Origin: Bradyrhizobium sp. 132
GTDB taxonomy: Bacteria > Pseudomonadota > Alphaproteobacteria > Rhizobiales > Xanthobacteraceae
Length of the DNA: 64,000 nt
Assembly: GCF_023074185.1 (NCBI RefSeq)
Contig: NZ_JADPKY010000132.1
Coordinates: 62,001 to 126,000 of the forward strand
Direction of reading: 5' to 3'
A model generated the notes under the pieces. That model saw only the letters and a list, made by a program, of their open reading frames with translations, was not told the origin of the DNA and ran no database searches. Position numbers and translations under genes: made by a program. Below are positions 35,367-51,789 of the stretch, piece after piece. Each line of letters begins with the position of its first letter. Within the stretch, counting starts at the first letter, position 1.

Positions 35367-36881
35367 CTAGGCCGCGCGCCACTCCGGCACGCCATCGAGG
35401 GCCATCGTGATCTCGCCGAGTGAGCCGACCGGCGTCCTATCCGTGTTCAGGAGATGCGCCAGCGTCGCCGCATCGTTCGCCGGAATCCGCGCCAGCGTGC
35501 GCCGGTCATCTTCCGTCCGCAGCATCACCACGCCGTGCTCGACATCGCCGCCACGGCCGTAGAGCACCGTAAAGCTCTCGACCTTGCCCCTGCCTGAGAT
35601 ATCCATGACGAACTCCGGCACCGCGCGCTTGTTGCTGTCTGCCACCGCCTGCACGCTGGTCTCCTGCGCCAATGCCTCACGCGGCGGCACCTTCGACACC
35701 ACCAGCGCATGATGCTTGGTGACGAAGCCGCCCTGCCCGTAAAGCAGGCCGAGCTTTGCGCCGTCGCGCACACGCCGCACCATCGCGCAGGCTGCATGCG
35801 TCATGTAGGTGTTGAGGGGCGCGCCGAAGAAGGTGAGGCCGCCGGTCACGGTCGGCTGTACGTCGGGGCCTAAGCCCAGCGTCCGCCGCGCCATCTTGGG
35901 TACGCACGGGAAGCAGCTGTAAAGTTCGATCGCGTCGAACTTCTTGCCGTCGGCCCCGGCGAGGTCCATCGCGGCTTTCAGCACCGCATTCTGCGGATGG
36001 CTCTCGTAAAACTGGTCGCGCAGGAGATAGTCGCGCGGCTCTTCCGCAGAGGCGCCACCGAGCGGGTAGACCAGCTTGTCTTCGGCAATGCCGGTCGCGC
36101 GAGCCCTGGCAAGGCTGGTGAGCAGCAGCGCACCGCCCATGTTGACGCTGGGGTTGGCAACCATGAGCTTGTTGTAGGGCCACGCGATGAGACGATTGTC
36201 CGCCGTCGGCGTCGTGATCTCGTCCGGCGCGTAGCGCCGCTTGAGCCAGGCGTTGGGATTTTGCGCCGCGGCCTCGGAATAGCGCGACCACAGCGTGCCG
36301 GACTCTGCCATGGCTTCGCGCGGCGTCTGGCCCCAATGCGCCGAGGAGGCGGTCTCATAGAACGGGTAGACGGTGACGGGGCGGAACACACCGAGCTTCA
36401 CGGCCAACGGCTTCTGGAATGCCGCCCCGCGCTTCGGCTCCTCGACGTCATGGGCGAACGGCGTCCATGGCAGCTTGGCCCCGGCACGCTCGGCCTTGGT
36501 CGCGGTCGACTGCGCTTCCGCGCCACAGACCGCTGCCACGGTGCATTCGCCCCGCGCGATGCGCTTCGCTGCCTCGTGGACGTAGTGGATCGGGCTTTCG
36601 CCGCCGACCGGGCCGTAATAGCAATGCGCCGGCGTGATGCCGAGACGTTGCGCCAACAACTTCTCCGGATCGCGATAGCGCCAGCTCAGGAAGTTGACGA
36701 CGTCGAGCGACTGCACTTCGCCGAGCAGCTTGGCGCCGGCGTCCTGCTCGGCACGTCGCAGCGCTTGTTCGAGCAGATCAAGCGGCTCGAGACCGTCGGT
36801 GATCTCCTTGGGGCGATCGACGATCTCGCCGATGCCGATGATGACGGGGATGCGGTTTGGGGGGATAGAGGAGTTCGTCAT
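35367..36881 (-). CDS. Thiolase-like protein type 1 (acetyl-CoA acetyltransferase family)
   Basis: A 504-aa thiolase-superfamily protein, about 100 aa longer than ordinary thiolases. A nucleophile candidate is Cys119 in AVCGAEAQST. The extra C-terminal domain, about residues 420-504 (beginning near GKVESFTVLYGRGG), matches the additional domain of TLP1 proteins. The start was taken as ATG 36881; a GTG at 36896 is the only longer option. TLP1 enzymes act on acyl-CoAs, but their reaction is poorly known. It lies near acyl-CoA genes but is separated from the nitronate monooxygenase gene by a repeat. Confidence 0.85.
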   Translation of the reverse strand: MTNSSIPPNRIPVIIGIGEIVDRPKEITDGLEPLDLLEQALRRAEQDAGAKLLGEVQSLDVVNFLSWRYRDPEKLLAQRLGITPAHCYYGPVGGESPIHYVHEAAKRIARGECTVAAVCGAEAQSTATKAERAGAKLPWTPFAHDVEEPKRGAAFQKPLAVKLGVFRPVTVYPFYETASSAHWGQTPREAMAESGTLWSRYSEAAAQNPNAWLKRRYAPDEITTPTADNRLIAWPYNKLMVANPSVNMGGALLLTSLARARATGIAEDKLVYPLGGASAEEPRDYLLRDQFYESHPQNAVLKAAMDLAGADGKKFDAIELYSCFPCVPKMARRTLGLGPDVQPTVTGGLTFFGAPLNTYMTHAACAMVRRVRDGAKLGLLYGQGGFVTKHHALVVSKVPPREALAQETSVQAVADSNKRAVPEFVMDISGRGKVESFTVLYGRGGDVEHGVVMLRTEDDRRTLARIPANDAATLAHLLNTDRTPVGSLGEITMALDGVPEWRAA

Positions 36882-36922
36882 TTCTGTTTGCTTCACGTTT
36901 CAGATCTTGGGCACGCCGTCGC

Positions 36923-37047: not shown

Positions 37048-38181
37048 TCACTCCGCCACCAGCGCATTCATGTGCTCGACGGCTTCGGCAAACTCTTCCT
37101 TGAACTCCTGCACCACGGAGCCTGCGGATTTCACGCTGTCGATCAGGCCGACGCCCTGGCCGACGAAATAGCTGACGAGATCCCGCGCCCTCGCGTTGCC
37201 ACTCGCCGCGGCGCGGTCGATCGAGTTGAAGGCGTCGCGGCTGACGATGCTTTGTAGCGGCATCGGCAATGCGCCGGGGCTCTCGGGTGCGCGATCCCAG
37301 GCGTCGGTCCAGACCGAGCGGAGTTGTCGGGCCGGCTTTCCCGTACGCCCTTTCGAGCGGATCGCATCGCGCGATGATGCCGCGATCATCTTCTCGCGAA
37401 AGATCTCCGTGGTCTCGGCCTCGACGGTGGCAAGCCACACCGAGCCGGTCCAGGCGCCGGCCGCACCCATCGCCATGCAGGCCGCCATCTGCCGTCCGGT
37501 CATGATGCCGCCGGCCGCCAGCACCGGCACGTCGCGGATCGGCTTGATCGCCTTGATCACCTCCGGCACCAGCACCATGGTGGAGACCTCGCCGCAATGG
37601 CCGCCCGCTTCGGTGCCCTGGACCACGAGGATATCGACGCCGGCCGCGACCTGTCGTAGCGCATGCTCCTTGGCGCCGACCAGAGCGGCAACCGGCACGC
37701 CGTGCTTCCTGCCCATCTCGATCATAGCCTTCGGCGGCACGCCCAGGGCATTGGCGATCAGGCGAATCGGGTGGTTGAACGAGACCTCCAGCAGCTCCAA
37801 CGCGGTCCTGGCATCGAACGGCTGCGGCTGGTCGTCAGCCATCTCAGTGGTCGTGAGTTCGATGTCGTATTTCTTCAGGAGATCGCGCGTGTAGTTGCGA
37901 TGCTCCTGCGGCACTCGTGCTTCAAGGCTCTTCCAGGTGACGTCCTTCTCACCCGCGGTCGAAATGTTTTCCGGGATCAGCACGTCGACACCGTAAGGCT
38001 TGCCCTCAACGTGGTCGTCGATCCATTTCAGCTCGCGTTCGAGGGTATCAGGCGTGTGCACGGTCGCACCTAACACGCCAAAGCCGCCGGCGCGGCTGAC
38101 GGCGGCGACGACATCGCGGCAATGGCTGAAGGCGAGCAGCGGGAACTCGATGCCCAGCATATCGCAGATCGGCGATTTCAT
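37048..38181 (-). CDS. Nitronate monooxygenase (2-nitropropane dioxygenase family)
   Basis: A 377-aa FMN-dependent TIM-barrel enzyme. The flavin phosphate site is in LAAGGIMTGRQMAACMAMGAAG (about residues 220-241, split here for reading), and QGTEAGGHCG holds the catalytic-type His of the family. It oxidises alkyl nitronates; many homologues detoxify propionate-3-nitronate. I used ATG 38181, with a GAGG site upstream, instead of the longer frame. It is divergent from the Baeyer-Villiger-type monooxygenase gene. Confidence 0.9.
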   Translation of the reverse strand: MKSPICDMLGIEFPLLAFSHCRDVVAAVSRAGGFGVLGATVHTPDTLERELKWIDDHVEGKPYGVDVLIPENISTAGEKDVTWKSLEARVPQEHRNYTRDLLKKYDIELTTTEMADDQPQPFDARTALELLEVSFNHPIRLIANALGVPPKAMIEMGRKHGVPVAALVGAKEHALRQVAAGVDILVVQGTEAGGHCGEVSTMVLVPEVIKAIKPIRDVPVLAAGGIMTGRQMAACMAMGAAGAWTGSVWLATVEAETTEIFREKMIAASSRDAIRSKGRTGKPARQLRSVWTDAWDRAPESPGALPMPLQSIVSRDAFNSIDRAAASGNARARDLVSYFVGQGVGLIDSVKSAGSVVQEFKEEFAEAVEHMNALVAE

Positions 38182-38434
38182 CGTTCCCTCCCGGCGGCCT
38201 CGCGTTGCTGTTGTTGCATTCTGCAGCGAAGACCACTCGACGCTAGCCCATCGTCGTCCGCGATGCCACGCCGGATTCGGCCGCGCATCTTGCGCGCAGG
38301 CGTCGCGCGGCAGACGAGCCATTCCGCTGTACAAAATAAGCAGATCAGAGCCGGCCGATTTGCCCCTTGCGCTTTCGGATGCGCGAGCGAATGCTGGCCC
38401 ACAACAACAGAAAACAACGAGGGAGCGCCAGTCG

Positions 38435-40093
38435 ATGTCGCCAGCGCAAGCGAATCCGTCTCCGACCACGGAATCCTACAACGTGATCGTCGTCGGCGCG
38501 GGTTTCGCCGGCATGTACATGCTGCACCGTTTGCGCGGGCTCGGTTTCTCGGCGCGAGTCTACGAGCAGGGCGGCGGCGTCGGCGGCACCTGGTACTGGA
38601 ATCGCTATCCCGGTGCGCGTTGCGACGTCGAGAGCATGCAATATTCCTATTCGTTCTCGGAAGAGCTCCAGCAGGAATGGGACTGGAGCGAGCGCTACGC
38701 ATCGCAGCCGGAGATTTTGAAATACGCCAACCACGCCGCTGACCGGTTTGATCTGCGCCGGGACATCCAGTTCAACACCAACGTCGAGCGCGCGGTGTTC
38801 GACGAGCGTGCGAGGTGCTGGGCGGTGACGACGTCCGACGGCACAACGGTTCAGGCGCAATTCGTCGTGCTCGCGACCGGCTGTCTCTCGAATGCGCGCA
38901 AGCCCGACATCAAGGGTCTCGAGAATTTCGAAGGCCCCGTCTATCACACCGGCAACTGGCCGCACGAAGACGTTGATTTCACCGGCTTGCGCGTCGGCCT
39001 GATCGGAACGGGATCGTCAGGCATTCAGTCGGCGCCCGTCATCGCCGGACAGGCAAAACATCTGACAGTGTTTCAGCGCACTGCGAATTTTTCCATTCCC
39101 GCCCGCAATGCCGCGTTGACCGGCGAGGAGCGCAACACGTTCCGCAAGAATTATCCCGAGATCCGCCGCTTCGCCCGCGAAGTCGCGCGCAACGGAATTT
39201 TCGCCGAGCAGCCCGACCGCGGCGCGCTCGATGATAGCGACGATGTCAGGCGCGAAAAATACGCGGCGCGCTGGGAGCGCGGTGGTCTCACCTTCATGTA
39301 TGCCTACAACAATCTCGGCCTCGCGCTGTCGGCGAACGACACCGCCGCGAATTTCGTCCGCGGCAAGATCGGCGAGATCGTGACGGATCCCGAGACGGCA
39401 AAGCTGCTGCAGCCGGACAGCCATCCGATCGGCACCAAGCGCATCTGCATCGACACCGATTATTTCGCGACCTTCAACCGGCCGAACGTCTCGCTGGTCG
39501 ATATCAAGAGCAACCCGATCCAGGAGATCACGGCGAATGCCGTCCGTGTCGGAGGCGAGGACCACGAGGTCGACGCGCTCGTGCTCGCGACCGGCTTCGA
39601 CGCCATGACCGGATCGGTCGCGAAGATCGACATCCGAGGTCCGGGCGGACAGACGCTGAACCGGAAATGGGCGGAAGGCCCCAAGACCTATCTCGGGCTG
39701 ATGAGCGCCGGCTTTCCGAACCTCTTCATCATCACCGGCCCCGGCAGCCCCTCGGTGCTCTCGAACATGATCGTGTCGATCGAGCAGCATGTCGACTGGA
39801 TCGCCGACGGTCTCGTCCATATGCGCAAGCAGGGCCTTGCCACGATGGAGGCGGACGGGGAGGCCGAGGACAAATGGGTCGCCCATGTCAACGAGGTCGC
39901 CCATGGCACGCTCTATCCGCAAGCCAATTCCTGGTACATGGGCGCCAACATCCCCGGCAAGCCGCGCATCTTCATGCCCTATATCGGCGGCGTCGGCGTC
40001 TACCGCCGAATCTGCGACGAGGTCGCGGCGAAGGGATATGAGGGGTTCGTGATGGAAGCCGAAGCCCGGCCGCGCAGGCTGGTGACGGGCTAG
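38435..40093 (+). CDS. Flavin monooxygenase, Baeyer-Villiger type
   Basis: A 552-aa FAD/NADPH monooxygenase. The FAD motif is VVGAGFAGMYML, the Baeyer-Villiger fingerprint is FEGPVYHTGNWP (FxGxxxHxxxWP), and the NADPH motif GTGSSGIQ follows. It probably inserts oxygen into a ketone to give an ester or lactone, as in cyclohexanone or phenylacetone monooxygenases. ATG 38435 was chosen because a purine-rich GAGGGAG lies about nine bases upstream and the FAD motif follows in about 23 residues. No esterase gene is next to it. Confidence 0.93.
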   Translation: MSPAQANPSPTTESYNVIVVGAGFAGMYMLHRLRGLGFSARVYEQGGGVGGTWYWNRYPGARCDVESMQYSYSFSEELQQEWDWSERYASQPEILKYANHAADRFDLRRDIQFNTNVERAVFDERARCWAVTTSDGTTVQAQFVVLATGCLSNARKPDIKGLENFEGPVYHTGNWPHEDVDFTGLRVGLIGTGSSGIQSAPVIAGQAKHLTVFQRTANFSIPARNAALTGEERNTFRKNYPEIRRFAREVARNGIFAEQPDRGALDDSDDVRREKYAARWERGGLTFMYAYNNLGLALSANDTAANFVRGKIGEIVTDPETAKLLQPDSHPIGTKRICIDTDYFATFNRPNVSLVDIKSNPIQEITANAVRVGGEDHEVDALVLATGFDAMTGSVAKIDIRGPGGQTLNRKWAEGPKTYLGLMSAGFPNLFIITGPGSPSVLSNMIVSIEQHVDWIADGLVHMRKQGLATMEADGEAEDKWVAHVNEVAHGTLYPQANSWYMGANIPGKPRIFMPYIGGVGVYRRICDEVAAKGYEGFVMEAEARPRRLVTG

Positions 40094-40203: not shown

Positions 40204-41085
40204 ATGACTGACGCCCCCGCCTACGTGCCGCCCAAGGTCTGGACCTGGAACAAGGAGAATGGCGGGCAATTCGCCAGCATCAACCGCCCGATCGCCGGTC
40301 CCACGCATGACAAGGAGCTGCCGGTCGGCCGCCACCCCTTCCAGCTCTATTCGCTGGCGACGCCGAACGGCGTCAAGGTCACCGTGATGCTGGAGGAGCT
40401 TCTGGCGCTCGGCCACAAGGGCGCGGAATACGACGCCTGGCTGATCAAGATCGGCAATGGTGACCAGTTCGGCAGCGGCTTTGTCGACATCAATCCGAAT
40501 TCCAAAATCCCGGCGCTGATGGACCGCTCAGGCCCGGAGCCGATCCGGGTGTTCGAGTCCGGCTCGATCCTGCTTTATCTCGCGGAGAAGTTCGGCGCCT
40601 TCCTGCCGAAGGACATCAAGAGCCGTACCGAAGCGATGTCGTGGCTGTTCTGGCAGATGGGCAGCGCGCCCTATCTCGGCGGCGGCTTCGGCCATTTCTA
40701 CGCCTATGCGCCGACCAAGATCGAATATGCCATCGACCGTTTTGCGATGGAGACCAAGCGCCAACTCGACGTGCTCGACCGCCGGCTCGCCGACAATGAA
40801 TATCTCGCCGGCAGCGAATACACCATCGCCGACATGGCGGTGTGGCCCTGGTATGGCGCGCTCGCCAAGGGGCTGGTCTATGGCGCGGGCGAATTCCTGT
40901 CCGTGCAGGACTACAAGCACGTGCAGCGCTGGACCGACCAGATCGCCAAGCGCCCGGCCGTCAAGCGCGGCCGCATGGTCAACCGCGTCTCCGGCGATCC
41001 CGCCAGCCAGCTCCACGAGCGGCATGATGCCGGCGATTTCGAGACCAAGACCCAGGACAAGATCGGCGAGTTGGCCGCGTCGTAG
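40204..41085 (+). CDS. yghU: Glutathione S-transferase, YghU-like
   Basis: A 293-aa member of the Nu-class GST family. The N-terminal extension before the thioredoxin-like domain, with INRPIAGPTHDKELPVGRHP (about 27-46) and then LYSLATPNGVKVTVMLEELL, is characteristic of YghU. These proteins bind two glutathiones and reduce disulfides or peroxides. ATG 40204 has GGAGAG upstream. It follows the monooxygenase gene by 110 bases and may or may not be cotranscribed. Confidence 0.9.
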   Translation: MTDAPAYVPPKVWTWNKENGGQFASINRPIAGPTHDKELPVGRHPFQLYSLATPNGVKVTVMLEELLALGHKGAEYDAWLIKIGNGDQFGSGFVDINPNSKIPALMDRSGPEPIRVFESGSILLYLAEKFGAFLPKDIKSRTEAMSWLFWQMGSAPYLGGGFGHFYAYAPTKIEYAIDRFAMETKRQLDVLDRRLADNEYLAGSEYTIADMAVWPWYGALAKGLVYGAGEFLSVQDYKHVQRWTDQIAKRPAVKRGRMVNRVSGDPASQLHERHDAGDFETKTQDKIGELAAS

Positions 41086-41263: not shown

Positions 41264-42541
41264 TCACGCCATGCTCAGCTCGTGGCGTCCCACCACCATC
41301 CAGTGCACCTCGTCCGGACCGTCGGCGAAGCGGAGATGGCGGACGTCCTGGTACATTTCGGCGAGCGGGGTCCAGTGCGAGATGCCGGTGGCGCCGTGCA
41401 TCTGGATCGACTGGTCGATGATCTTGCAGGCTCGCTCCGGCACCATGGCCTTGACCATGGAGACCCAGACGCGGGCTTCCTTGTTGCCGAGCACATCCAT
41501 GGCCTTGGCGGCCTTCAAGACCATCAGCCGCATCGCCTCGATCTCGCAGCGCGCCTGCGCGATGATCTGCATGTTGCCGCCGAGATGGGCGATCTTCTTG
41601 CCGAAGGCTTCGCGGGTGAGGCCACGCTGCACCATCAAATCGAGCGCCTTCTCGGCCTTGCCGATGGTGCGCATGCAGTGATGGATGCGGCCCGGGCCGA
41701 GCCGAAGCTGCGAGATCTCGAAGCCGCGGCCTTCGCCGAGCAGAATGTTTTCCTTGGGCACGCGCACGTTGTTGAAGCGCATGTGCATGTGGCCGCGCGG
41801 GGCGTGGTCCTGGCCGAACACGTACATGGGGCCGAGCACTTCGACGCCGGGGGTGTCGCGCGGCACCAGGATCTGCGACTGCTGCTTGCTCGGCGCCGCA
41901 TCCGGATTGGTCTTCACCATCACGATGAGGATCTTGCAGCGAGGATCGCCGACACCGGAGATGTAATACTTCTCGCCGTTGATCACCCACTCGTCGCCGA
42001 CGAGCTTTGCGTTCGTCGAGATGTTCTTGGCGTCGGAGGAGGCGACGTTCGGCTCGGTCATGACATAGGCCGAGCGGATCTCGCCGTTCATCAACGGCTT
42101 CAGCCACTTCTCCTTCTGCTCCTTGGTGCCGACGCGCTCCAGCACCTCCATGTTGCCGGTGTCCGGCGCCGAGCAGTTCATGCTCTCCGAGGCCAGCGGG
42201 CTCTTGCCGAGCTCGGATGCGATATAGGCGTAGTCGAGATTCTTCAGGCCCTGGCCGGTGTCGTCGTCGGGCAGGAAGAAGTTCCAGAGGCCTTCCTGCT
42301 TGGCCTTGTTCTTGGCTTTCTCCAGCACCTCGAGCTGCTTCGGCGTAAAGCTCCAGCGATCCTCTTTGCCTTCGCCGGCCTTGGCGAATTCGATCGACAT
42401 CGGCTCGACGGTTTCGCGGATGAACTTCTTGACGTGATCATAGAGCGGCCGGACCTGGTCCGACATCCGGAGGTCGTTGAGCTCGTCGCCGGGGTTGAGG
42501 GTGTAATTGGTGGTGCGGGGAATATAGGCGTGTTTTGTCAT
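41264..42541 (-). CDS. Acyl-CoA dehydrogenase, ACAD10/11 (LvaC) type
   Basis: A 425-aa FAD enzyme. EPNVASSDAKN, INGEKYYISGVGDPRCKI, LGEGRGFEISQLRLGPGRIHHCMR (split in reading) and FADGPDEVH are features of the ACAD10/11 branch, which handles 4-phospho acyl-CoAs made by a partner kinase. At the usual catalytic-base position (EGT in MCAD) it has Asp407 in DGPDEVH. ATG 42541 has GGAGGA upstream. A kinase and a DUF6285 protein, the usual partners, are encoded about 4-5 kb away. A PsrA-like palindrome lies 122 bases upstream. Confidence 0.9.
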   Translation of the reverse strand: MTKHAYIPRTTNYTLNPGDELNDLRMSDQVRPLYDHVKKFIRETVEPMSIEFAKAGEGKEDRWSFTPKQLEVLEKAKNKAKQEGLWNFFLPDDDTGQGLKNLDYAYIASELGKSPLASESMNCSAPDTGNMEVLERVGTKEQKEKWLKPLMNGEIRSAYVMTEPNVASSDAKNISTNAKLVGDEWVINGEKYYISGVGDPRCKILIVMVKTNPDAAPSKQQSQILVPRDTPGVEVLGPMYVFGQDHAPRGHMHMRFNNVRVPKENILLGEGRGFEISQLRLGPGRIHHCMRTIGKAEKALDLMVQRGLTREAFGKKIAHLGGNMQIIAQARCEIEAMRLMVLKAAKAMDVLGNKEARVWVSMVKAMVPERACKIIDQSIQMHGATGISHWTPLAEMYQDVRHLRFADGPDEVHWMVVGRHELSMA

Positions 42542-42897
42542 TGTTCCTCCCGGACTCGCTGAGATCGTGCTGGAGCAGAGAATAGTCGCAGCGTCGCCAA
42601 AGTGCGAGCGCGCATTTTCCAACGCGAACCATGCCACGCGATGGAATATCGCAATAGCGTTTCAAACACTGTTTGAGCGAGATCGGCATCGCGACGGCGA
42701 CAGTCGGATGACCCGTCGGCTCGCAGATCTTCAGCAGGCATCTTGCGATTTGAACATGTGGGTCGGTTGACGGGTTGCGCCGCCGCAGCTCCTCTAGCCG
42801 ATTCCGCACTGGTTCCGCCTATTCCCGGCCAGCTATTGGGGCTTTTGCGTGCCGCTGTAACCGGCTAACCTCCGGCTCGCGCTAAGGGAGAGAGTAC
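42542..42897. other. 356-base divergent intergenic region
   Basis: The gap between the start of the ACAD11-type gene and the start of the histidine kinase gene. Apart from the palindrome at 42663-42677 I see no gene, terminator or repeat. It must hold both promoters. Confidence 0.7.
42663..42677. promoter_or_regulatory. PsrA-like palindrome upstream of acyl-CoA dehydrogenase gene
   Basis: TCAAACA-C-TGTTTGA is a perfect palindrome. Its core CAAAC-ACT-GTTTG fits the consensus (G/C)AAAC-N(2-4)-GTTT(G/C) known for PsrA, a TetR regulator of beta-oxidation in Pseudomonas. It lies between the dehydrogenase and kinase genes. No PsrA homologue is encoded in the window, so the regulator is inferred only by motif. 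Confidence 0.55.
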
Positions 42898-44133
42898 ATG
42901 AGTTCTTCCGTTATACGCGAAGTGCAGTTTCCGAAGCAGCCGGCGCTGCAGTTGATCTACGATACAGCGCCGATCGGGCTTGCATATCTTTCGCCGGACT
43001 GCCGCTATTTGCAGATCAATCAGCGCCTCACCGAGATCTGCGGTATCTCGGTCGAAGGCCACCTCGGGCACACGGTGCGGGATTGCGTGCCCGGGCTCGC
43101 ATCCGCCGTCGAGGGCATCGTTCGCTCCATCATGGAAACCGGCGAGCCGGTCATCGGGATCGAGGTTTACGGCCAGCGTCCCGGCTATAATGACGAACGC
43201 TGCTGGATCACCTATTGGCATCCGCAGCGCGGACCGAACGGTAACATCGTCGGCGTCAATGTCGCGGCAGAGGAGATCACCGAACGCAAGCGCAGCGAGC
43301 GAGAGATTCGCGGCGCGCGCGACGCGGCGGAGGCGGCGCTGCAACGCCTGAAAGAGGCTCAGGATTCACTGGTCGAGGTGGAGAAGCTCGCAGCTCTCGG
43401 ACGGTTGGTGGCTGGCGTGGCACACGAGATCAACAGTCCCGTCGGTACCAGCCTGACCGTCACCTCGGCGCTGGAGCGCAAGACGACAAAGTTTGCGGCG
43501 GAAGTCGCACGGGGCGGGCTGAAGCGATCGAGCCTGAATGAGTTCGTCGCGGTTGTTCAGACCGCATCACTGCATCTGGCCGACAATCTCGCCCGCGCCG
43601 CGGAATTGATCCAGGCATTCAAGCAGGTCGCTGTCGATCAAGGCTATCTAGAACGCCGCAGCTTCGATCCGGGCGAGCTGACGCGACAGGTTGCCGTGAG
43701 CCTACAGCAGGAGTTGCGGAAGAACGCTTTGGCGCTCAATGTCGAATGCCAGCCCGATCTGGCAATGAACAGTTATCCGGGTCAATTCGCACAGGTGGTG
43801 ACCAACTTGATTAAGAACGCGATGGTGCACGCGTTTCCGCATGCCAAGAGCGGCAGCATCAACATCGAGATTTGCGCGTGCGGCCGGGATGATATTGAGA
43901 TTGTCGTTTCTGATGATGGCTGCGGCATGAGCGCGGATCTGCGCCGGCAGGCGTTCAATCCGTTTTTCACGACGCGTCGCAGTCAAGGCTGCATCGGTCT
44001 CGGCCTGCACATCGTTCATAACATCGTCGTCAGTCGGCTGGGCGGGCGTATCAATCTCGAAAGCGAGCCAGACGAGGGGACACGAATTGGCGTGATCGTG
44101 CCGCGAGTTGCGCCCGTGCCACGCGATGGCTAG
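42898..44133 (+). CDS. Soluble PAS-domain sensor histidine kinase
   Basis: A 411-aa kinase with no membrane segment. A PAS domain with PAC covers about residues 14-132, and a short coiled coil follows. The H-box is LVAGVAHEINSP with phospho-accepting His176. The ATPase domain has the N-box NLIKNAMVHAF, G1 SDDGCGMSADL and G2 GLGLHIVHNIV. No response regulator is adjacent, so it is an orphan. The ligand or cofactor of the PAS domain is unknown. Confidence 0.92.
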   Translation: MSSSVIREVQFPKQPALQLIYDTAPIGLAYLSPDCRYLQINQRLTEICGISVEGHLGHTVRDCVPGLASAVEGIVRSIMETGEPVIGIEVYGQRPGYNDERCWITYWHPQRGPNGNIVGVNVAAEEITERKRSEREIRGARDAAEAALQRLKEAQDSLVEVEKLAALGRLVAGVAHEINSPVGTSLTVTSALERKTTKFAAEVARGGLKRSSLNEFVAVVQTASLHLADNLARAAELIQAFKQVAVDQGYLERRSFDPGELTRQVAVSLQQELRKNALALNVECQPDLAMNSYPGQFAQVVTNLIKNAMVHAFPHAKSGSINIEICACGRDDIEIVVSDDGCGMSADLRRQAFNPFFTTRRSQGCIGLGLHIVHNIVVSRLGGRINLESEPDEGTRIGVIVPRVAPVPRDG

Positions 44134-44214
44134 CGCGCCGGACACAGGCGAACGGAAGCGACGCCGTCCTTCGGATGGCTATCCTGGCTACGGCGACGCA
44201 GTGAGTGCCCCTGC

Positions 44215-44592
44215 TCACACCATCCGATGCATCGCGCAGATCTTGTTGCCGTCGAGGTCGCGCAAATACGCAATATAGAGGTTGACGCCCGGGCCTTGTC
44301 GGACGCCGGGTGGATCTTCGCAAGGGATGCCGCCAGCGGCGATACCGGCGGCATGCCAGGCGTCGACCTGTTCCGGCGAATGGCAGGCGAAGCCGATGGT
44401 GCCGCCATTCGCGCACGTCGCCGCCTCGCCGTTGATCGGCTTCGTGACCGAGAACACGCCGGTCTTGGTGATGTAGAAGATGCGATGGCCGTCAACCCTG
44501 GCCGGCCGCACCTCGAGCGTGCTCAGCAAATCGTCGTAGAATGCCTTGGCCTTGTCGAGGTCGTTGGTGCCGATCATCACGTGGGAAAACAT
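44215..44592 (-). CDS. VOC-family (glyoxalase-fold) protein
   Basis: A 125-aa protein starting MFSHVMIGTNDLDKAKAFYDD, with two beta-alpha-beta-beta-beta modules. His4 and CHSPEQVDAWH suggest metal ligands, but the last expected Glu is in DLDGNKICAMHR, where it is not obvious. Members include glyoxalases, dioxygenases and epimerases, and function cannot be assigned. It is on the minus strand, 79 bases after the SDR gene. Confidence 0.85.
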   Translation of the reverse strand: MFSHVMIGTNDLDKAKAFYDDLLSTLEVRPARVDGHRIFYITKTGVFSVTKPINGEAATCANGGTIGFACHSPEQVDAWHAAGIAAGGIPCEDPPGVRQGPGVNLYIAYLRDLDGNKICAMHRMV

Positions 44593-44671
44593 TTGCCCTG
44601 TCCCCTTATTGCGCTTACGAAATCAGACATCGTAGGTTGGCAAAGCGCAGCGTGCCCACCACGACAAAAAC

Positions 44672-45451
44672 TCAAAACGCTGTATAGCCGCCGTCGATCA
44701 CGAACGTATCCGCGGTGTGATAGGACGAGGCCTTGCTCATCAGATAGACCGCGATGCCGCCGAAATCGCTGGCCTCGCCGAAGCGCCGCACCGGAATGCG
44801 CGGCATCACGTTGGCGACGAATTTTTCGTTGGCCATGATGCCGGCGGTCATGTCGCTCTTGATCCAGCCGGGCAGGATTGCATTCGCGGTGACGCCGTGG
44901 CGTGCCAGCTCGACGCCGAGCGCGCGCACCAGCGCGTTGATCGCGGCCTTGGTCGCCGCGTAATGCTCGTTACGCGCGGTGCCGAAGATCGAGGCCAGGC
45001 TCGAGGTCGCGACCAGCCGGCCAAAGGGATCGCCGGCCTCGGCGCGCTGGGTCATGTGTCTTGCGGCAGCCTGGAACGCGTGGAAGACGCCGTCGAGATT
45101 GGTCGCAAACATCGTGCGCCATTCCTCCTCGGTGCGCTCGATGAAGGAGCGCCGGCCGCCGCCGCCGATGCCGGCATTGGCGAAGCAGCCGTCGACCCGG
45201 CCGAAAATGTCGAGCGTGGCCTTCATCGCGGCATTGACCGAGGCCGGGTCAGTGACGTCGCAGACCCGCGCGTCGACCTTGCCGGGCAGATCCGCAAGGC
45301 TCGCGGCAGCGCTTCTGTTCTTGTCAGGATTACGGCCCCAGATCGAGACGTTGCAGCCCTGGCCGGCGAGCGCCTGTGCGATGCCGAGTCCGATACCGCC
45401 ATTGCCGCCGGTGATCACGGCCACGCGGCCCGAGAGGTCGAAAAGGTCCAT
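44672..45451 (-). CDS. SDR-family oxidoreductase
   Basis: A 259-aa classical SDR. The cofactor motif is VITGGNGGIGLGIA, with NAG in CFANAGIGGG. Catalytic Ser is in ATSSLASIF, and Tyr/Lys are in HYAATKAAI. It likely oxidises or reduces a hydroxyacyl compound. It is divergent from the crotonase-kinase-DUF6285 operon. In the Pseudomonas lva operon an SDR (LvaD) accompanies the same partners, so it may serve a similar role here; this is inference from context. Confidence 0.92.
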   Translation of the reverse strand: MDLFDLSGRVAVITGGNGGIGLGIAQALAGQGCNVSIWGRNPDKNRSAAASLADLPGKVDARVCDVTDPASVNAAMKATLDIFGRVDGCFANAGIGGGGRRSFIERTEEEWRTMFATNLDGVFHAFQAAARHMTQRAEAGDPFGRLVATSSLASIFGTARNEHYAATKAAINALVRALGVELARHGVTANAILPGWIKSDMTAGIMANEKFVANVMPRIPVRRFGEASDFGGIAVYLMSKASSYHTADTFVIDGGYTAF

Positions 45452-45614
45452 GGCGCGTTTCCTGTTTTTGGCATGAGCGCATCAGCCGCTGCGCGCAAGA
45501 TTGCTGGCTATGCTCTGATCACCATGGACAAGACCGCGCCAAAAATCAAATATGCGCCCCGGCAAGCAATTCCGGTCTGCGAAATTGACACAGGCCGCAA
45601 CGTACGAGGAAACC

Positions 45615-46403
45615 ATGCAGTTCAAACACGTCACGCTCGATCTCGATGGTTCGGTCGCGATCCTCAAGCTCGACCATCAGGAGGTGATGAACGCGGTCTC
45701 CGTGGACATGCTGGGCGGTCTCGCAGATGCGCTCGACGTGATCGAGGAGAAGAAGGACGAGGTGCGTTGCGTCGTGCTGACCGGCGCGGGCCGCGCATTC
45801 TGCACCGGCGCGAATCTCCAGGGCCGCAACAACCAGTCGAAGAAGACCAAGGCCGGCCTGACGCTGGAGACCGGCTTCCACCCGTTCCTGCGCCGCATCC
45901 GCAATCTGCATTGTCCTGTTGTCACCGCGGTCAATGGTCCGGCGGCCGGCGCCGGCATGAGCTTCGCGCTGCTCGGCGACATGATCCTGTGCGCGCGCTC
46001 GTCCTATTTCCTGCAAGCCTTCCGCCGTATCGGCCTCGTGCCGGATTGCGGCTCGACCTGGCTGCTGCCGCGGCTGATCGGCAAGGCCCGCTCGATCGAA
46101 TTGTCGCTGATGGGTGAACGGCTCCCGGCCGATAAGGCGCTGGAATGGGGCCTCGTCAACCGCGTCTATGATGACGGCGCGCTGATGGAGGAGGCGATGA
46201 AGCTCGCGCGCGAGCTCGCCAGCGGCCCGACGGTCGCGCTGTCGCTGATCCGCAAGCTCTACTGGGACAGCCCGGAAAATTCCTTCGAGGATCAGCTCAA
46301 TCTCGAATTCCAGTGCCAGCTCCGCGCCGGCGATACGCAGGACTTCCGTGAAGGCGTCGGTGCGTTCCTGGAGAAGCGCCCGGCGCAGTTCAAAGGCAAA
46401 TGA
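45615..46403 (+). CDS. Crotonase-fold enoyl-CoA hydratase/isomerase, PaaG-like
   Basis: A 262-aa crotonase. The oxyanion site is FCTGANLQG and NGPAAGAGMSFALLGD. The active-site region FRRIGLVPDCGSTWLLPRL has Asp in VPD, as in PaaG isomerases, and lacks the first catalytic Glu of hydratases. An isomerase role is therefore more likely than hydration. ATG 45615 has GAGGA upstream. Its stop overlaps the kinase start by 4 bases, showing coupling. Confidence 0.9.
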   Translation: MQFKHVTLDLDGSVAILKLDHQEVMNAVSVDMLGGLADALDVIEEKKDEVRCVVLTGAGRAFCTGANLQGRNNQSKKTKAGLTLETGFHPFLRRIRNLHCPVVTAVNGPAAGAGMSFALLGDMILCARSSYFLQAFRRIGLVPDCGSTWLLPRLIGKARSIELSLMGERLPADKALEWGLVNRVYDDGALMEEAMKLARELASGPTVALSLIRKLYWDSPENSFEDQLNLEFQCQLRAGDTQDFREGVGAFLEKRPAQFKGK

Positions 46404-47386
46404 TCGAGGCCGAACTCTCCCGCAGCGTTCAGCGCTGGTACCCGGGCGCGACGGGTGTCGCCGGAGTGGCAAGGCTGTCCGGCGGCGCCAGTCAGGAAAC
46501 CTGGCGCTTCGATATCGTACATCCGGATGGGTCGATCGGCGCGATTCTGCGCCGCGCACCGAACGGCTATGGTGCTGCACCGACGCGTGCAGCCGGCCTC
46601 GCTGCCGAAGCAACGCTGATGCAGCTCGCATTCGAGGCCGGCGTGCCGTCGCCGCGCGTCATGCATGTGCTGGTGCCGGACGACGATCTCGGCACCGGCT
46701 TCATCATGCAGCGGGTCGAGGGCGAGACCATCGCGCGCAAGATTCTTCGCGATGATGAATTCGCCGCGGCGCGACCGCGCGTCGCGCGGCAGATCGGCGG
46801 GGTGCTGGCCGGACTCCATAAGCTGCCCCTTTCGAAGCTGCCCGAGCTGCGGCACATGAGCGCCACGAAGGAGATCGGCGAGTTCGAGCGCGACTATCGC
46901 AGCTTGAACTGGCCCAAGCCCGTGTTCGAGCTGGCGCTGCGCTGGCTGCGCGACCACGACCCCGGTCCGTCCGCCGAAGAAACGCTGGTACACGGTGATT
47001 TCCGCAACGGCAATCTCATCATCGGTGCCGACGGCGTGCGCGCGGTGCTCGACTGGGAGCTCGCCCATCTCGGCGATCCCATGGAGGATCTCGGCTGGGT
47101 CTGCGTCAACTCATGGCGTTTCGGCGAGATCGACAAGCCCGTCGGCGGGTTTGGCTCGCGCGAAGAGCTGTTCGCCGGTTATGAGGCCGCGGGGCGCAAA
47201 TGCGATCCTGAGCGGGTCAAGTTCTGGGAAGTGATGGGCACGCTGCGCTGGGGCATCATGTGCGGCGGCATGATGCAGCGGTTTCGCGAAGGCCCGGACC
47301 ATTCGATGGAACGCGCCATGATCGGCCGCCGCGCCTCCGAGACCGAAATCGATCTGTTGCGGCTGCTCGCGCCGCGGGGGAGTTGA
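46400..47386 (+). CDS. Aminoglycoside-phosphotransferase-fold kinase (ACAD10/11 kinase / LvaA type)
   Basis: A 328-aa APH-fold kinase. Brenner's motif HGDFRNGN (198-205) and the metal site DWELAHLGDP (Asp218) are intact. Relatives fused to, or next to, ACAD11-type dehydrogenases phosphorylate 4-hydroxyacyl-CoAs; LvaA in Pseudomonas does this for 4-hydroxyvaleryl-CoA. It overlaps the PaaG-like gene upstream and is followed by the DUF6285 gene after 2 bases. The acyl substrate is unknown. Confidence 0.92.
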   Translation: MIEAELSRSVQRWYPGATGVAGVARLSGGASQETWRFDIVHPDGSIGAILRRAPNGYGAAPTRAAGLAAEATLMQLAFEAGVPSPRVMHVLVPDDDLGTGFIMQRVEGETIARKILRDDEFAAARPRVARQIGGVLAGLHKLPLSKLPELRHMSATKEIGEFERDYRSLNWPKPVFELALRWLRDHDPGPSAEETLVHGDFRNGNLIIGADGVRAVLDWELAHLGDPMEDLGWVCVNSWRFGEIDKPVGGFGSREELFAGYEAAGRKCDPERVKFWEVMGTLRWGIMCGGMMQRFREGPDHSMERAMIGRRASETEIDLLRLLAPRGS

Positions 47387-47388
47387 CC

Positions 47389-47769
47389 ATGCAGGACGAA
47401 CCGACCCCGATCGAGCTGACCAAATCGGTCGCCGATTTCCTTCGCAACGACATCGCGCCGTTGATCTCCGGCCACCCCGCCTTCAAGCTGCGGGTCGCCG
47501 TCAACATCCTCGATCTCGTGACACGGCAGCTGACGCAGGGGGAGGGGAGCGATGCTGCGGAGGTCGAGCGGTTGCGCGCGCTGCTCGGCGCGGACGGCAC
47601 GGTGACGGAGCTCAACCGCGCGCTAGCCGACCGTATCGCGAAAAGCGAGGTGGATCTCGCAACACCGGGGTTGGCAGAACACCTCTGGCAGACGACGATG
47701 GACAAGCTTGCGGTCGACCAGCCGAATTATGCATCCTATAAGCGGGAGCTGTCGCGAGGCGGCGGTTAG
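47389..47769 (+). CDS. DUF6285 protein (LvaB-like)
   Basis: A small 126-aa helical protein with no catalytic motif I can name. DEPTPIELTKSVADFLRND and HPAFKLRVAVNILDLVTRQL (about 3-21 and 33-52) look like DUF6285, usually encoded next to APH-fold kinases. LvaB in Pseudomonas is a small protein of this size needed for LvaA activity; that homology is my recollection, not a search result. It starts 2 bases after the kinase stop and ends the operon. Confidence 0.85.
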   Translation: MQDEPTPIELTKSVADFLRNDIAPLISGHPAFKLRVAVNILDLVTRQLTQGEGSDAAEVERLRALLGADGTVTELNRALADRIAKSEVDLATPGLAEHLWQTTMDKLAVDQPNYASYKRELSRGGG

Positions 47770-47884: not shown

Positions 47885-48664
47885 CTACTTCCCCACCCAT
47901 TTCGGCGGCCGCTTCTCCGCAAACGCCTTCGGGCCCTCGATGTAGTCCTGTGACGCCGCCATCGCCTTCACCGCCGGGTACTCCCGCTGCTCCTCGATCG
48001 CCTGCTCCAGCGACACGCCAAGGCCCTTCTGGATGGTCTGCTTCGACGCGCGGATCGACATCGGCGAATTCTTGGTGATCATCTCGGCCCAGCGCAGCGC
48101 GGCCGTCAGCGCCTCGCCCTGCGGCACCACCTCGTTGACGAAGCCGAGCTCGAGGCCTTCCTTGGCGCTGACATGGCGCGCGGTGAGGATCATGCCCATG
48201 GCGCGCTTCAAGCCGATCTGCCGCGGCAGCCGGTGCAGGCCGCCGGCGAGGGCGGCAAGGCCGACGCGTGGCTCGGGCAGGGCGAAGGTCGCATTCTCGG
48301 AGGCGATGATGAGATCGCAGGCGAGCGCGATCTCGAAACCACCGCCCATGGCGACACCGTTGACGGCGGCGACGATCGGCTTGTCGCAGTCGAAGCGCGC
48401 GGTGAGGCCGGCAAACCCGCCCTTGTCCCAGCCGCGCTTGCCACCTGCCGCCTGCCACTTCAGGTCGTTGCCGGCGCAGAATGCCTTGTCGCCGGCGCCG
48501 GTGACGATCGCGACCCACTGCTCGGCATCGGCGCAGAAATGGTCGAACACCGTTTGGAGCTCGAAATGCGCATCGGTGTGAAGCGCGTTGTAGACCTCGG
48601 GCCGCGACAGCGTGACGATCGTGATCGGTCCCTTGCGTTCCACTTTGGAAAATTTCAGCTCCAT
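47885..48664 (-). CDS. Crotonase-fold enoyl-CoA hydratase
   Basis: A 259-aa crotonase. FCAGNDLKWQ and NGVAMGGGFEIALACDL form the CoA and oxyanion sites. Catalytic-type Glu is in LPEPRVGLAALAGGLHRLP, in the position of the first hydratase glutamate; the second is replaced. It resembles the CaiD/carnityl-CoA dehydratase side of the family, but the substrate is unknown. ATG 48664 has a GGGAG site upstream. It is divergent from the acyl-CoA dehydrogenase gene. Confidence 0.9.
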   Translation of the reverse strand: MELKFSKVERKGPITIVTLSRPEVYNALHTDAHFELQTVFDHFCADAEQWVAIVTGAGDKAFCAGNDLKWQAAGGKRGWDKGGFAGLTARFDCDKPIVAAVNGVAMGGGFEIALACDLIIASENATFALPEPRVGLAALAGGLHRLPRQIGLKRAMGMILTARHVSAKEGLELGFVNEVVPQGEALTAALRWAEMITKNSPMSIRASKQTIQKGLGVSLEQAIEEQREYPAVKAMAASQDYIEGPKAFAEKRPPKWVGK

Positions 48665-48873: not shown

Positions 48874-50148
48874 GTGGATTTCTCATTGCCTGCCGATCTC
48901 GTCGCCTATCTCGGAGAGCTTGACCAATTCATCGAACGCGAGATCAAGCCGCTGGAGGCGGCCGACGACAACATCCGCTTCTTCGATCATCGCCGCGAAT
49001 GGGCGCGCACCGATTTCGAAAATGGCGGCCTGCCGCGCCACGAATGGGAAGCGCTGCTGCGCAAGGCCAAGGATCTCGCGGACGCCGCCGGCCATCTGCG
49101 TTTTCCGGTGCCGAAGCAATATGGCGGCAAGGATGGCTCCAACCTCTGGATGGCCGTGATCCGCGAGCACTTTGCCGCGAAGGGGCTCGGCCTGCACAAC
49201 GACCTCCAGAACGAGCATTCCATCGTCGGCAATTTTCCTGTCGCCACCATGCTCGACCGCTACGGCCGCGACGACCAGAAGGCGATGATCGACGGCTCGA
49301 TCAAGGGCAAGTACCGCATCACCTTCGGGCTGACCGAGCCAAATCATGGCTCCGACGCCACCCACATGGAAACGCGCGCGGTGCCTGCGACCCGCGACAA
49401 CGTCAAGGGCTGGATCATCAACGGCGAGAAGATGTGGACCACCGGCATGCATGTCGCCACGCACTGCGCGCTGTTCGTGCGCACTAGCGGTAATGACGGC
49501 GATGCGCGCGGCATCACCTGCTTCCTGGTGCCGGCCAAGAGCCACGGCGTGAAGATCGAAGAGTACATGTGGACGTTCAACATGCCGACCGATCATCCCC
49601 GCGTCAGCTTCACCGACGTGTTCGTGCCCGAGGACGCGCTGTTCGGCGAGGTCGGTCGCGGCCTGTCGCTGGCGCAGTGTTTCGTGCACCAGAACCGAAT
49701 CCGCCAGGCCGCGAGTTCGCTCGGAGCCGCCGTCTATTGCATCAACGAGAGCGTGAAATATGCGCGCGAGCGAAAACCGTTCGGCAAGGCGCTGGCCGAA
49801 AATCAGGCGATCCAGTTCCCGCTGGTCGAGCTGGCGACCCAGGCCGAGATGCTGCGCCTGTTGATCCGCAAGACCGCCTGGGAGATGGACAAGCTCACCG
49901 AGGAGCAGATCGAGCGCACGCTCTCCGACCGCGTCTCGATGTGCAACTACTGGGCAAACCGCCTCGCTTGCGAATCCGCCGACCGCGCCATGCAGGTCCA
50001 CGGCGGCATGGGCTATTCACGCCACAAGCCGTTCGAGCACATCTACCGCCACCACCGCCGCTACCGCATCACCGAGGGCAGCGAGGAAATCCAGATCCGG
50101 AAGGTGGCCGGATTCCTGTTCGGGTATATGGGGCCGGGAAAGCACTGA
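48874..50148 (+). CDS. Acyl-CoA dehydrogenase, second copy
   Basis: A 424-aa FAD acyl-CoA dehydrogenase. FGLTEPNHGSDATHMETRA and INGEKMWTTGMH bind FAD and substrate. Glu401 in RITEGSEEIQ is at the catalytic-base position of MCAD-type enzymes. The N-terminal helix domain (about 1-120) is typical. The start is GTG at 48874 with GGGAGAG upstream. Unlike the ACAD at 41264, it is an ordinary beta-oxidation type and does not have the ACAD11 features. Confidence 0.93.
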   Translation: MDFSLPADLVAYLGELDQFIEREIKPLEAADDNIRFFDHRREWARTDFENGGLPRHEWEALLRKAKDLADAAGHLRFPVPKQYGGKDGSNLWMAVIREHFAAKGLGLHNDLQNEHSIVGNFPVATMLDRYGRDDQKAMIDGSIKGKYRITFGLTEPNHGSDATHMETRAVPATRDNVKGWIINGEKMWTTGMHVATHCALFVRTSGNDGDARGITCFLVPAKSHGVKIEEYMWTFNMPTDHPRVSFTDVFVPEDALFGEVGRGLSLAQCFVHQNRIRQAASSLGAAVYCINESVKYARERKPFGKALAENQAIQFPLVELATQAEMLRLLIRKTAWEMDKLTEEQIERTLSDRVSMCNYWANRLACESADRAMQVHGGMGYSRHKPFEHIYRHHRRYRITEGSEEIQIRKVAGFLFGYMGPGKH

Positions 50149-50208: not shown

Positions 50209-51789
50209 TCAATTCACCCGCCGGTCCTTCCCCGCCCAATACGGCTCGCGCAATTGCCGCCGCAAGATCTTGCCGCTTGGATTTCGCGGCACCGCCGGCA
50301 AAAACTCGACGCTCTTCGGCGTCTTGAACCCGGCGATGCGCTCGCGGGTGAAGTTGATGATGTCGATTTCGGTCGCCTGCTTGCCCGGCTTCATCACCAC
50401 GACGGCCTTCACCGCTTCGCCCCATTTGTCGTCGGGTATGCCGATCACGGCAGCTTCTGCGACATCGGGATGATCGCACAGCGCGCTCTCGACCTCGGCG
50501 GGATAGATGTTTTCGCCGCCGGAGATGATCATGTCCTTGATGCGGTCGTGGATGTAGAGATAGCCGTCTTCGTCCATGTAGCCGGCGTCGCCGGTGCGCA
50601 GCCAGCCGTCGGAGCGCAAAGTCGCGGCGGTCGCTTCCGGCAAATTCCAGTAGCCGGCCATGTTGGAGCCCGAGCGCGTCGCGATCTCGCCGACTTCGCG
50701 CGGCGGCAGCGGCTTGCCTTCGACATCAAGGATCGCGATCTCGATGCCCGGCAGCGCCTTGCCGGCCGAGCGCATCCGCTCCAGTCCCTCGACGTGGTCT
50801 TCAGGCGGCAGCGCGACGATGGTGCCAGTGGTCTCGGTCATACCGTACATCTGCACGAAACCGCATTTGAAGATCTCGATGCACTCCTTCAGCAGCGCCG
50901 CGGGTATCGGGGAGGCACCGTACAGCATGTATTTCAACCGCGAGAAATCGACCGTCCTGGCGCGTGGCTGCCGCACCACGAACTGCATCGCCGCCGGCAC
51001 CATGAACAGTTTTGTGATGCCGGACTGTTCGAAGAAATCCAGCACTTTGGTCGGATCGAACTCGCGCGCAATCACGCCGCGGGCGCCGTGATAGAGCCCC
51101 ATCACGCCCCAGCCGGAGCCGCCGATGTGGAAGATCGGCATCGCGACCAGCGACACGTCGTCGGTCGACCACCGGTTCCACTCCGGCTTGTCCTCGGCAT
51201 TGCCTGTTTGCACCAGGTTGAGGAAGTTGGCATGCGACAGCATCGCGCCCTTCGGCTTGCCCGTCGTGCCGGACGTATAGAGCTGGATGGCGATATCCCT
51301 GGTATCGATCGGTACTCCGGGATCGCCGCCGCTCTGTGCATCGCGCCAGGCTGTATAATCAGGCCACTCCGGCGCGCCGCCTTCGGTGGTGATGACGGTG
51401 CGCACCCCCGGCAGCTCGTCCTTGATCTGGCTGACCTGAGCGATGAACTCCGGTCCCACGAACAGCACCGGGGCCTTGCAGTCGCTAACGATGAAGGCGA
51501 CCTCGGGGCCTGCGAGCCGCCAGTTCACCGGCGCCATCACGACGCCGGCCTTCATCGCGCCCATCAGCAGCTTGAAATAGATATCGCTGTTCTTGCCGAG
51601 ATAGGCGATCCGCTCGCCCTTGTTCACACCCATCGCGATCAGCGCATTGGCGACGCGATTGGTCTTGACATCGAATTCGGCAAAGCTGGTGACGCGGCCC
51701 TCGAACTCGTAGGCGGTGGCGTTGCCGCGGCTCGTCGCGCGCTCGCGCACCATGTCGGCGAGATCAGTCAATGGCTGTGTGGTGGGCAT
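50209..51789 (-). CDS. Acyl-CoA ligase (AMP-forming)
   Basis: A 526-aa ANL-superfamily enzyme. The P-loop is YTSGTTGKPKGAML, with YGMTETTG, the hinge TGDAGYMDEDGYLYI and DRIKDMIISGG, and catalytic Lys near the end in NPSGKILRR. It activates a carboxylic acid with ATP and CoA. ATG 51789 was chosen with GGGAG upstream. It is convergent with the acyl-CoA dehydrogenase gene. The chain-length preference is unclear. Confidence 0.93.
   Translation of the reverse strand: MPTTQPLTDLADMVRERATSRGNATAYEFEGRVTSFAEFDVKTNRVANALIAMGVNKGERIAYLGKNSDIYFKLLMGAMKAGVVMAPVNWRLAGPEVAFIVSDCKAPVLFVGPEFIAQVSQIKDELPGVRTVITTEGGAPEWPDYTAWRDAQSGGDPGVPIDTRDIAIQLYTSGTTGKPKGAMLSHANFLNLVQTGNAEDKPEWNRWSTDDVSLVAMPIFHIGGSGWGVMGLYHGARGVIAREFDPTKVLDFFEQSGITKLFMVPAAMQFVVRQPRARTVDFSRLKYMLYGASPIPAALLKECIEIFKCGFVQMYGMTETTGTIVALPPEDHVEGLERMRSAGKALPGIEIAILDVEGKPLPPREVGEIATRSGSNMAGYWNLPEATAATLRSDGWLRTGDAGYMDEDGYLYIHDRIKDMIISGGENIYPAEVESALCDHPDVAEAAVIGIPDDKWGEAVKAVVVMKPGKQATEIDIINFTRERIAGFKTPKSVEFLPAVPRNPSGKILRRQLREPYWAGKDRRVN

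Follow-up and report, generated by a model that had tools for sequence, protein, structure and literature searches.

Described relatives and the Bradyrhizobium locus

The closest described relatives of the kinase/DUF6285 locus analyzed here, which lies in a window of 64 000 nucleotides from Bradyrhizobium sp. 132 (the whole stretch analyzed, contig NZ_JADPKY010000132.1), are the Pseudomonas lva operon and the mammalian ACAD10/ACAD11 enzymes with their bacterial split counterparts. In the lva operon an APH-fold kinase is followed by a DUF6285 protein, accompanied by an acyl-CoA dehydrogenase (ACAD) that carries the four R/H/R/D residues described below and, nearby, by a coenzyme A (CoA) ligase and a short-chain dehydrogenase/reductase (SDR). 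The section of PMC6692424 on these genes, which cites Rand et al. 2017, describes LvaB as a binding partner of LvaA and growth on levulinate as dependent on lvaA, lvaB and lvaC. ACAD10/ACAD11 combine a kinase with an ACAD; according to excerpts of PMC11342911, a Burkholderia kinase and ACAD are able to replace the ACAD10 domains. Four ACAD11 residues, R626, H634, R637 and D753 (R/H/R/D below), are tied to the handling of phosphoacyl-CoA in excerpts of PMC12440821, the source of our numbering for them and for kinase residue D220.

Since the locus shares its families with both Lva and ACAD10/11, we propose that it encodes a pathway of hydroxyacyl-CoA phosphorylation and elimination that feeds beta-oxidation, a sister to these two systems with an extra conserved dehydrogenase. 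We give this proposal an even chance of being right. It builds on computed families, residues, gene coupling, synteny and co-occurrence, from which we infer the activities. The features of the locus are as follows.

41264..42541, minus strand: ACAD10/11-type dehydrogenase, here ACAD 41264 (PF00441/PF02770/PF02771; R280, H288, R291, D407)
44672..45451, minus strand: generic SDR, on the strand opposite to the kinase
45612..46403, plus strand: crotonase (PRK05981 family), opening the coupled run crotonase-kinase-DUF6285
46400..47386, plus strand: APH-fold kinase, a relative of LvaA from a separate clade (PF01636, 117 bits; Asp200 in HGDFRNGN, Asp218 in DWE)
47389..47769, plus strand: DUF6285 protein of 126 aa, LvaB family, presumed kinase subunit (PF19802)
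48874..50148, plus strand: ACAD48, an acyl-CoA dehydrogenase with the ordinary base Glu401, top conserved partner of kinase/DUF6285
50209..51783, minus strand: acyl-CoA ligase (NCBIfam PRK06187, 655 versus a cut-off of 476; 36/40 genus loci)
47885..48664, minus strand: crotonase between DUF6285 and ACAD48 (38/39 main genus loci)
40207..41085, plus strand: glutathione S-transferase (GST)-like protein, start uncertain, possible member (PF13410/PF00043)
44215..44592, minus strand: VOC/glyoxalase-fold protein, possible member, syntenic in 36/40 genus loci
42898-44133, plus strand: PAS histidine kinase, between ACAD 41264 and the SDR

The kinase and its DUF6285 partner

The PF01636 match and the catalytic Asp identify the kinase as an APH-fold enzyme; Asp200 of its HGD motif aligns with ACAD11 D220 (Ala in 8v3u). 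Its identity to LvaA is 33-35% (147-152 bits), which places it nearer to LvaA than to the ACAD10-like kinase of the same genome (contig C147, 65 bits). Its DUF6285 partner also sets it apart from ACAD10/ACAD11 and the C147 pair. In the PDB it comes closest to 3dxp (53.8 bits), followed by mouse ACAD11 at 47.6 bits. In a kinase tree of 84 rows, with genus rows thinned and rows shorter than 230 aa dropped, the window kinase groups with that of Sulfitobacter (L002), two further loci (L058 and L133) and the genus rows (support 99/95). It lies outside the LvaA clade, as the LvaA rows cluster by themselves in a group of 18 (98/96).

The adjoining DUF6285 protein matches PF19802 at 110 bits (cut-off 28.1), and two LvaB proteins match the same family at 85 and 77 bits. 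In the lva operon of a Pseudomonas aeruginosa plasmid the kinase gene is followed by one with the annotation lvaB, whose Stutzerimonas counterpart is annotated as DUF6285. Because both score well above the cut-off, DUF6285 is, judged by its family profile, the LvaB family, and the position next to the kinase fits an LvaB-family subunit. A 'domain of unknown function' is thereby tied to LvaB. The term DUF6285 was not found in the literature searched, where acyl-CoA kinase terms gave Lva and ACAD10/11 papers and off-subject titles. The earlier interpretation of this DNA made from sequence alone (the sequence-only reading) had seen an LvaA/LvaB-type pair here, and both the shared PF19802 family and the identity of the kinase to LvaA bear it out. 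By analogy with the described systems, the pair probably phosphorylates a hydroxylated fatty-acid-like molecule for breakdown.

In other genomes kinase and DUF6285 are fused in one reading frame, and the fusion was also seen independently in 10 loci of the class. The predicted DUF6285 structure, modeled with three extra residues before the true start, consists of five helices (mean pLDDT 84.7, pTM 0.52). Foldseek gave no match to it at E<=0.001, and the best VIA-align match (Z 6.6 over 47 residues) may reflect just common helix packing; for these reasons we read no function from the fold.

Three side observations concern these genes. The plasmid just mentioned (L006; NZ_MF344569, p12939-PER) carries a cluster of kinase, lvaB, ACAD, SDR and ligase. 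At L066 and L070 a tandem pair of window-type kinases stands ahead of DUF6285, which suggests duplication. A histidine phosphatase family gene follows kinase/DUF6285 in Stutzerimonas (L007, 9286-10047) and Thermus (L003, 11312-11965), and the search of the window yielded no relative of this gene.

Two different acyl-CoA dehydrogenases

ACAD 41264 was assigned to the ACAD11 branch in the sequence-only reading, and its PDB match, residues and clade agree. Its best PDB match is mouse ACAD11 (389 bits), with the best chain after four ACAD11-type ones at 136 bits. It carries the motifs RLGPGRIHHCMR and ADGPDEVH, and in the alignment its R280, H288, R291 and D407 correspond to ACAD11 R626, H634, R637 and D753, the last of which is Asn in 8v3v. 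In an ACAD tree of 54 rows, which included only 5 ACAD48 rows and left out three unrelated ACAD groups, it sits in a clade of 28 rows (100/99) that also holds mouse ACAD11 and is separate from both LvaC and ACAD48. A motif count covering 162 ACADs found R/H/R/gap in two of the 53 rows of its group; one row, placed in a Thermus LvaC-like group at 28%, reads IIEL, and other residues stand in 14 rows of unrelated ACADs. The genome holds four ACADs with R/H/R/D: ACAD 41264, one on C147, one on C66 and C1b, the last about 57 kb off on the same contig. The C147 enzyme lies next to the ACAD10-like kinase (G000:C147:2398-4562, L169), and the two make a canonical split ACAD10/11 pair.

These placements bear on one alternative, namely that the locus is a levulinate (lva) pathway whose genes were rearranged. 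It would account for the shared families (kinase, LvaB/DUF6285, ACAD, SDR, ligase), but the kinase is outside the LvaA group, the R/H/R/D enzyme belongs to the ACAD11 clade rather than the LvaC clade and is not adjacent to the kinase, and SDR and ligase are only 31-35% identical to LvaD and LvaE (the SDR 31-35% to LvaD). The window counterparts of LvaC, LvaD and LvaE do not form one operon, being only 29-35% identical and lying on both strands. The locus also adds the conserved ACAD48 and the coupled crotonase to what the lva operon has, and the PrpR-type regulator and acetate symporter of the lva loci L006 and L007 have no counterpart among the scanned window genes. We therefore rejected the levulinate pathway on the kinase and ACAD clades and the low identity to LvaD and LvaE, and regard this explanation as extremely improbable; levulinate is an unlikely substrate. 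Of the possible Lva relationships, the one between DUF6285 and LvaB through PF19802 stands, and membership of the kinase in the LvaA clade and of the ACAD in the LvaC clade does not. Since neither the clade of the kinase nor its ACAD partner is that of Lva, the earlier suggestion of another hydroxy acid is plausible.

ACAD48 is a different enzyme. It is 71% identical to the ACAD of an operon on a Sulfitobacter pontiacus plasmid (NZ_CP081118), which in turn is only 25% identical to ACAD 41264. That operon reads ligase-kinase-DUF6285-ACAD48-crotonase-crotonase-thiolase; its kinase is 50% and its ligase, directly upstream of the kinase, 49% identical to those of the window. Unlike the window genes, it occupies a single strand, and its R/H/R/D ACAD is LvaC-type (55% to LvaC) and about 7 kb upstream. 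The nearest solved relatives of ACAD48 are ordinary ACADs (CarC, 152 bits). ACAD48 does not carry the R/H/R/D signature of ACAD10/11: all 67 sequences compared read F/Q/S/E at these positions, with the Glu base (E401) kept. In 125 fetched sequences together with that of the window, it has charged residues that are at least 97% conserved; they include R277, an extra Arg on the helix that bears R/H/R in ACAD11, and the run HIYRHHRRYRITEG, to which the base belongs. Thr replaces the Tyr that precedes the base. The ACAD48 model (pTM 0.86) has an ordinary ACAD fold, and the fold comparison is uninformative since ACAD11 and ordinary ACADs score close together (Z 37.9 against CarC, 37.4 and 37.1 against ACAD11 and about 35 against many further chains). 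Judged from its residues, ACAD48 may either act on a phosphorylated substrate or carry out ordinary dehydrogenation.

Distribution within the genus, class and phylum

Orthologs of ACAD 41264 were defined by at least 70% identity. Two class searches of 289 genomes each, with matching handles, were taken as one sample; a smaller class sample of 190 genomes was taken as G000 with G146-G334, and some genomes belong to both the class and the phylum samples. The search scored only some first-pass candidates per genome, so that absences reported below may be misses.

Among the 289 class genomes DUF6285 occurs in 66 and ACAD48 in 41, and 40 of the 41 ACAD48 genomes have both, often unlinked. We fetched and typed 60 class loci, leaving out several genomes with weak DUF6285 matches. 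Loci with a window-type kinase belong to genomes with ACAD48 in 41 of 44 cases, those with an LvaA-type kinase in none of 16. The opposite holds for R/H/R/D ACADs within about 10 kb, present at 13/16 LvaA-type loci versus 3/44 window-type ones. Thus, the dehydrogenase partner and the kinase clade switch together: kinase clades of one superfamily swap partners, LvaA going with an adjacent LvaC-type ACAD and the window clade with ACAD48. The class link between ACAD48 and the kinase is mostly one of presence rather than position, because ACAD48 is near the kinase at so few loci (see below). It was ACAD 41264 that had been named earlier as the dehydrogenase partner of the kinase, and here the sequence-only reading has to give way, as the conserved neighbor is ACAD48, which it did not list for this module.

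This pattern also makes it very unlikely that kinase and DUF6285 act on a small molecule other than a CoA ester, with the ACADs nearby just because beta-oxidation genes are packed densely here. In favor of such an accident, APH-fold kinases are diverse and acyl-CoA genes crowd the window. Against this stand the co-occurrence of ACAD48 and DUF6285, often unlinked, the membership of DUF6285 in the LvaB family and the switch of partner clade by clade.

ACAD 41264 orthologs were found in 13/190 class genomes, 12 of which have both DUF6285 and ACAD48. In the phylum sample of 398 genomes, 26 matched ACAD 41264 at E<=1e-150; after exclusion of six at 55-59%, 20 genomes have an ortholog, and ACAD48 is present in 18 of them. 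Outside the genus ACAD48 occurs in 8/10 genomes with the ortholog, against a base of 20/388. Some ACAD11-type ACAD is present in 28/29 ACAD48 genomes of the smaller class sample.

Within the genus DUF6285 is found in 138/146 genomes. Seven of the eight genomes without it also lack ACAD48 and a close ACAD 41264 ortholog; the eighth (G016, 89% complete) has both. All 39 main genus loci contain the kinase, DUF6285, the SDR and crotonase 45612, the latter on the same strand. ACAD48 is present at 38 of them; in G006, the remaining genome, it lies on the same contig at a distance of about 60 kb. ACAD 41264, which in the genus is 4 kb away from the kinase and on the opposite strand, was detected by tblastn at 36/39 loci and as a cut open reading frame at one more (L140); in G015 the ortholog is elsewhere in the genome.

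Two loci deserve separate mention. In G053 the DUF6285 match is split over two frames (G053:C1:2583909-2584183, L142). At L192 (G184) an ACAD10-like kinase, 48% identical to that on C147, lies directly beside ACAD48 and a ligase, and no DUF6285 was picked up there.

Kinase-DUF6285 loci in distant groups

To look beyond these samples we used 80 kinase-DUF6285 loci, the best 80 of 581 confirmed relatives, with 10 kb flanks, some contigs ending within the flank. Because the first query was a fused kinase, 78/80 loci are fused by construction. Their titles name Pseudomonadales, Alphaproteobacteria, Thermoanaerobaculia, Holophagales, Acidimicrobiia, Myxococcota and others. ACAD48 (62-69% identity) lies within the fetched flank at 59 loci: directly upstream on the same strand at 47, slightly further at one, 3-5 kb upstream and on the opposite strand at eight, and downstream at three. 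By record titles, the kinase-ACAD48 pair extends over Alpha- and Gammaproteobacteria, a Burkholderiaceae bin, Thermoanaerobaculia, Holophagales and Myxococcota. Beyond ACAD48, no family occurs at more than 10 of the 80 loci. An R/H/R/D-type ACAD (at least 38% to the panel, a 34% LvaC match at L225 not being counted) is within 10 kb at only three, L212, L216 and L254, where it is a 72-73% ortholog of ACAD 41264.

A hand-picked set of 25 genomes comprised 24 from the 80 loci and G197. Of the 24 genomes, which belong to other groups and have the fused kinase, 16 hold an ACAD 41264 ortholog at 71-75% and three more a relative at 60-63%. Relatives of the GST-like protein (73-76%) occur at kinase loci L095, L096 and L197 and also beside the ACAD 41264 ortholog at L155. 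A VOC relative (58%) follows as well at L155, and another (58%) is found at the kinase-ACAD48 locus L219. These relatives tie the two halves of the cluster together a little, and L155 shows that GST and VOC genes can accompany ACAD 41264 where there is no kinase. At four Acidimicrobiia-titled loci (L217, L225, L237 and L243) a different ACAD, 29-34% identical to an ACAD of the window genome, lies just downstream of kinase-DUF6285 and ACAD48 is lacking.

Proposed pathway and its alternatives

In the proposed pathway the ligase would first make the CoA ester. The kinase with its DUF6285 subunit would phosphorylate the hydroxyl of the hydroxyacyl-CoA, probably at C4 if LvaAB and ACAD10/11 are a guide. 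ACAD 41264, which has the required residues, would expel the phosphate with the help of flavin adenine dinucleotide (FAD), Asp407 as the base and the R280/H288/R291 cluster. The coupled crotonase 45612 may then hydrate or isomerise the enoyl-CoA. The putative role of ACAD48 is to dehydrogenate the same carbon skeleton in an ordinary FAD-linked reaction, either before phosphorylation or after elimination. The data point to acyl-CoA phosphorylation, and the question becomes whether ACAD48, the ACAD11-type enzyme or both act after the kinase.

A number of observations weigh against this assignment of roles. ACAD48 is within 10 kb of the window-type kinase at only 5/44 class loci and was not found in the flanks of 21 of the 80 distant loci, including all nine acidimicrobial, Microthrix and actinobacterial ones. 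Outside the genus, none of 13 loci with a 71-84% ACAD 41264 ortholog has an LvaA-, ACAD10- or window-type kinase in the fetched stretch. No ACAD 41264 match at the cut-off used was found in 12/30 phylum genomes with ACAD48, and the six phylum genomes with a relative at 55-59% all lack ACAD48. The complete genome G053 has the kinase, a DUF6285 match and ACAD48 and lacks ACAD 41264. Because the window genome has a separate ACAD10-like kinase/ACAD pair, its R/H/R/D enzymes could serve the C147 kinase. Finally, the Fisher tests on co-occurrence ignore shared ancestry.

The kinase-less ortholog loci (13/13) and the 12/30 ACAD48 genomes, together with L155, where GST and VOC genes are the neighbors, are what one would expect if kinase, DUF6285 and ACAD48 formed one pathway and ACAD 41264 were an unrelated ACAD11-type enzyme, their neighbor in this genus. 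We consider this improbable, since the orthologs occur mainly where the rest of the module does (12/13 in the class, 18/20 in the phylum) and lie near the fused kinase at three of the distant loci. The sequence-only reading would have been undermined by an ACAD clade not linked to APH kinases. This came true in part: no such kinase was found at the 13 fetched ortholog loci outside the genus. Against that, 12/13 class genomes with the ortholog have DUF6285 and ACAD48, and at 3/80 distant loci a 72-73% ortholog lies within 10 kb of the fused kinase.

The main rival is a two-part system in which ACAD48 itself processes the phosphorylated acyl-CoA, using its Glu base and anion-binding residues of its own, and ACAD 41264 works in another pathway or serves the C147 kinase. 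ACAD48 is the sole other family at many of the 80 fused-kinase loci, R/H/R/D ACADs are as rare near window-type kinases (3/80 and 3/44) as they are common near LvaA-type ones (13/16), and ACAD48 itself is strongly conserved, with the extra Arg277 and Thr in place of Tyr before the base. However, F/Q/S/E replaces R/H/R/D in 67/67 ACAD48 sequences, ACAD 41264-type orthologs travel with ACAD48, nearly all ACAD48 genomes of the smaller class sample (28/29) hold some ACAD11-type ACAD, and the fold comparison fails to set ACAD48 apart from ordinary ACADs. On balance we regard elimination by ACAD48 as possible, though unlikely. With similar reserve, it may be suggested that kinase-DUF6285 and ACAD48, beside Lva and ACAD10/11, are a third kinase/ACAD system, also widespread, that acts on phosphorylated acyl-CoAs. 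Its dehydrogenase, having an ordinary Glu as base and an anion site unlike the known one, would have evolved to handle the phosphorylated substrate, and the window genus would have gathered this system and an ACAD11-type eliminase in one locus.

Gene organization and neighboring genes

All genes named for the module in the sequence-only reading are present. The start of DUF6285 is 47389 and not 47380, because the kinase TGA is followed by CC and then by the ATG of DUF6285, a gap of 2 bp. The set is also wider than the 41264-47769 first proposed, as it reaches the ACAD at 48874. The crotonase 45612 and kinase genes share 4 bp (ATGA). From these junctions crotonase, kinase and DUF6285 look translationally coupled; the remaining genes are separate units. 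A single operon over 41264-47769 was rejected since the ACAD is on the opposite strand and a poorly conserved histidine kinase intervenes. The latter was found at 65% identity in only 1/40 genus loci (L132) and is therefore likely a recent insertion.

Crotonase 45612 passes NCBIfam PRK05981 (485 versus a cut-off of 351) and does not reach the curated cut-off of PaaG, 2-(1,2-epoxy-1,2-dihydrophenyl)acetyl-CoA isomerase (TIGR02280, 270 versus 345 bits). Consequently, its earlier description as 'PaaG-like' holds as mere resemblance. The SDR reached no curated cut-off among the 25 NCBIfam matches listed.

The genes flanking the locus are a flavin monooxygenase-like gene (38000-40093, plus strand), a nitronate monooxygenase-like gene (37048-38040, minus strand) and a thiolase-like (TLP1) gene (35367-36896, minus strand). 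Such neighbors could point to a substrate that is cyclic or a ketone. Substrate guesses based on them were dropped, as they did not converge.

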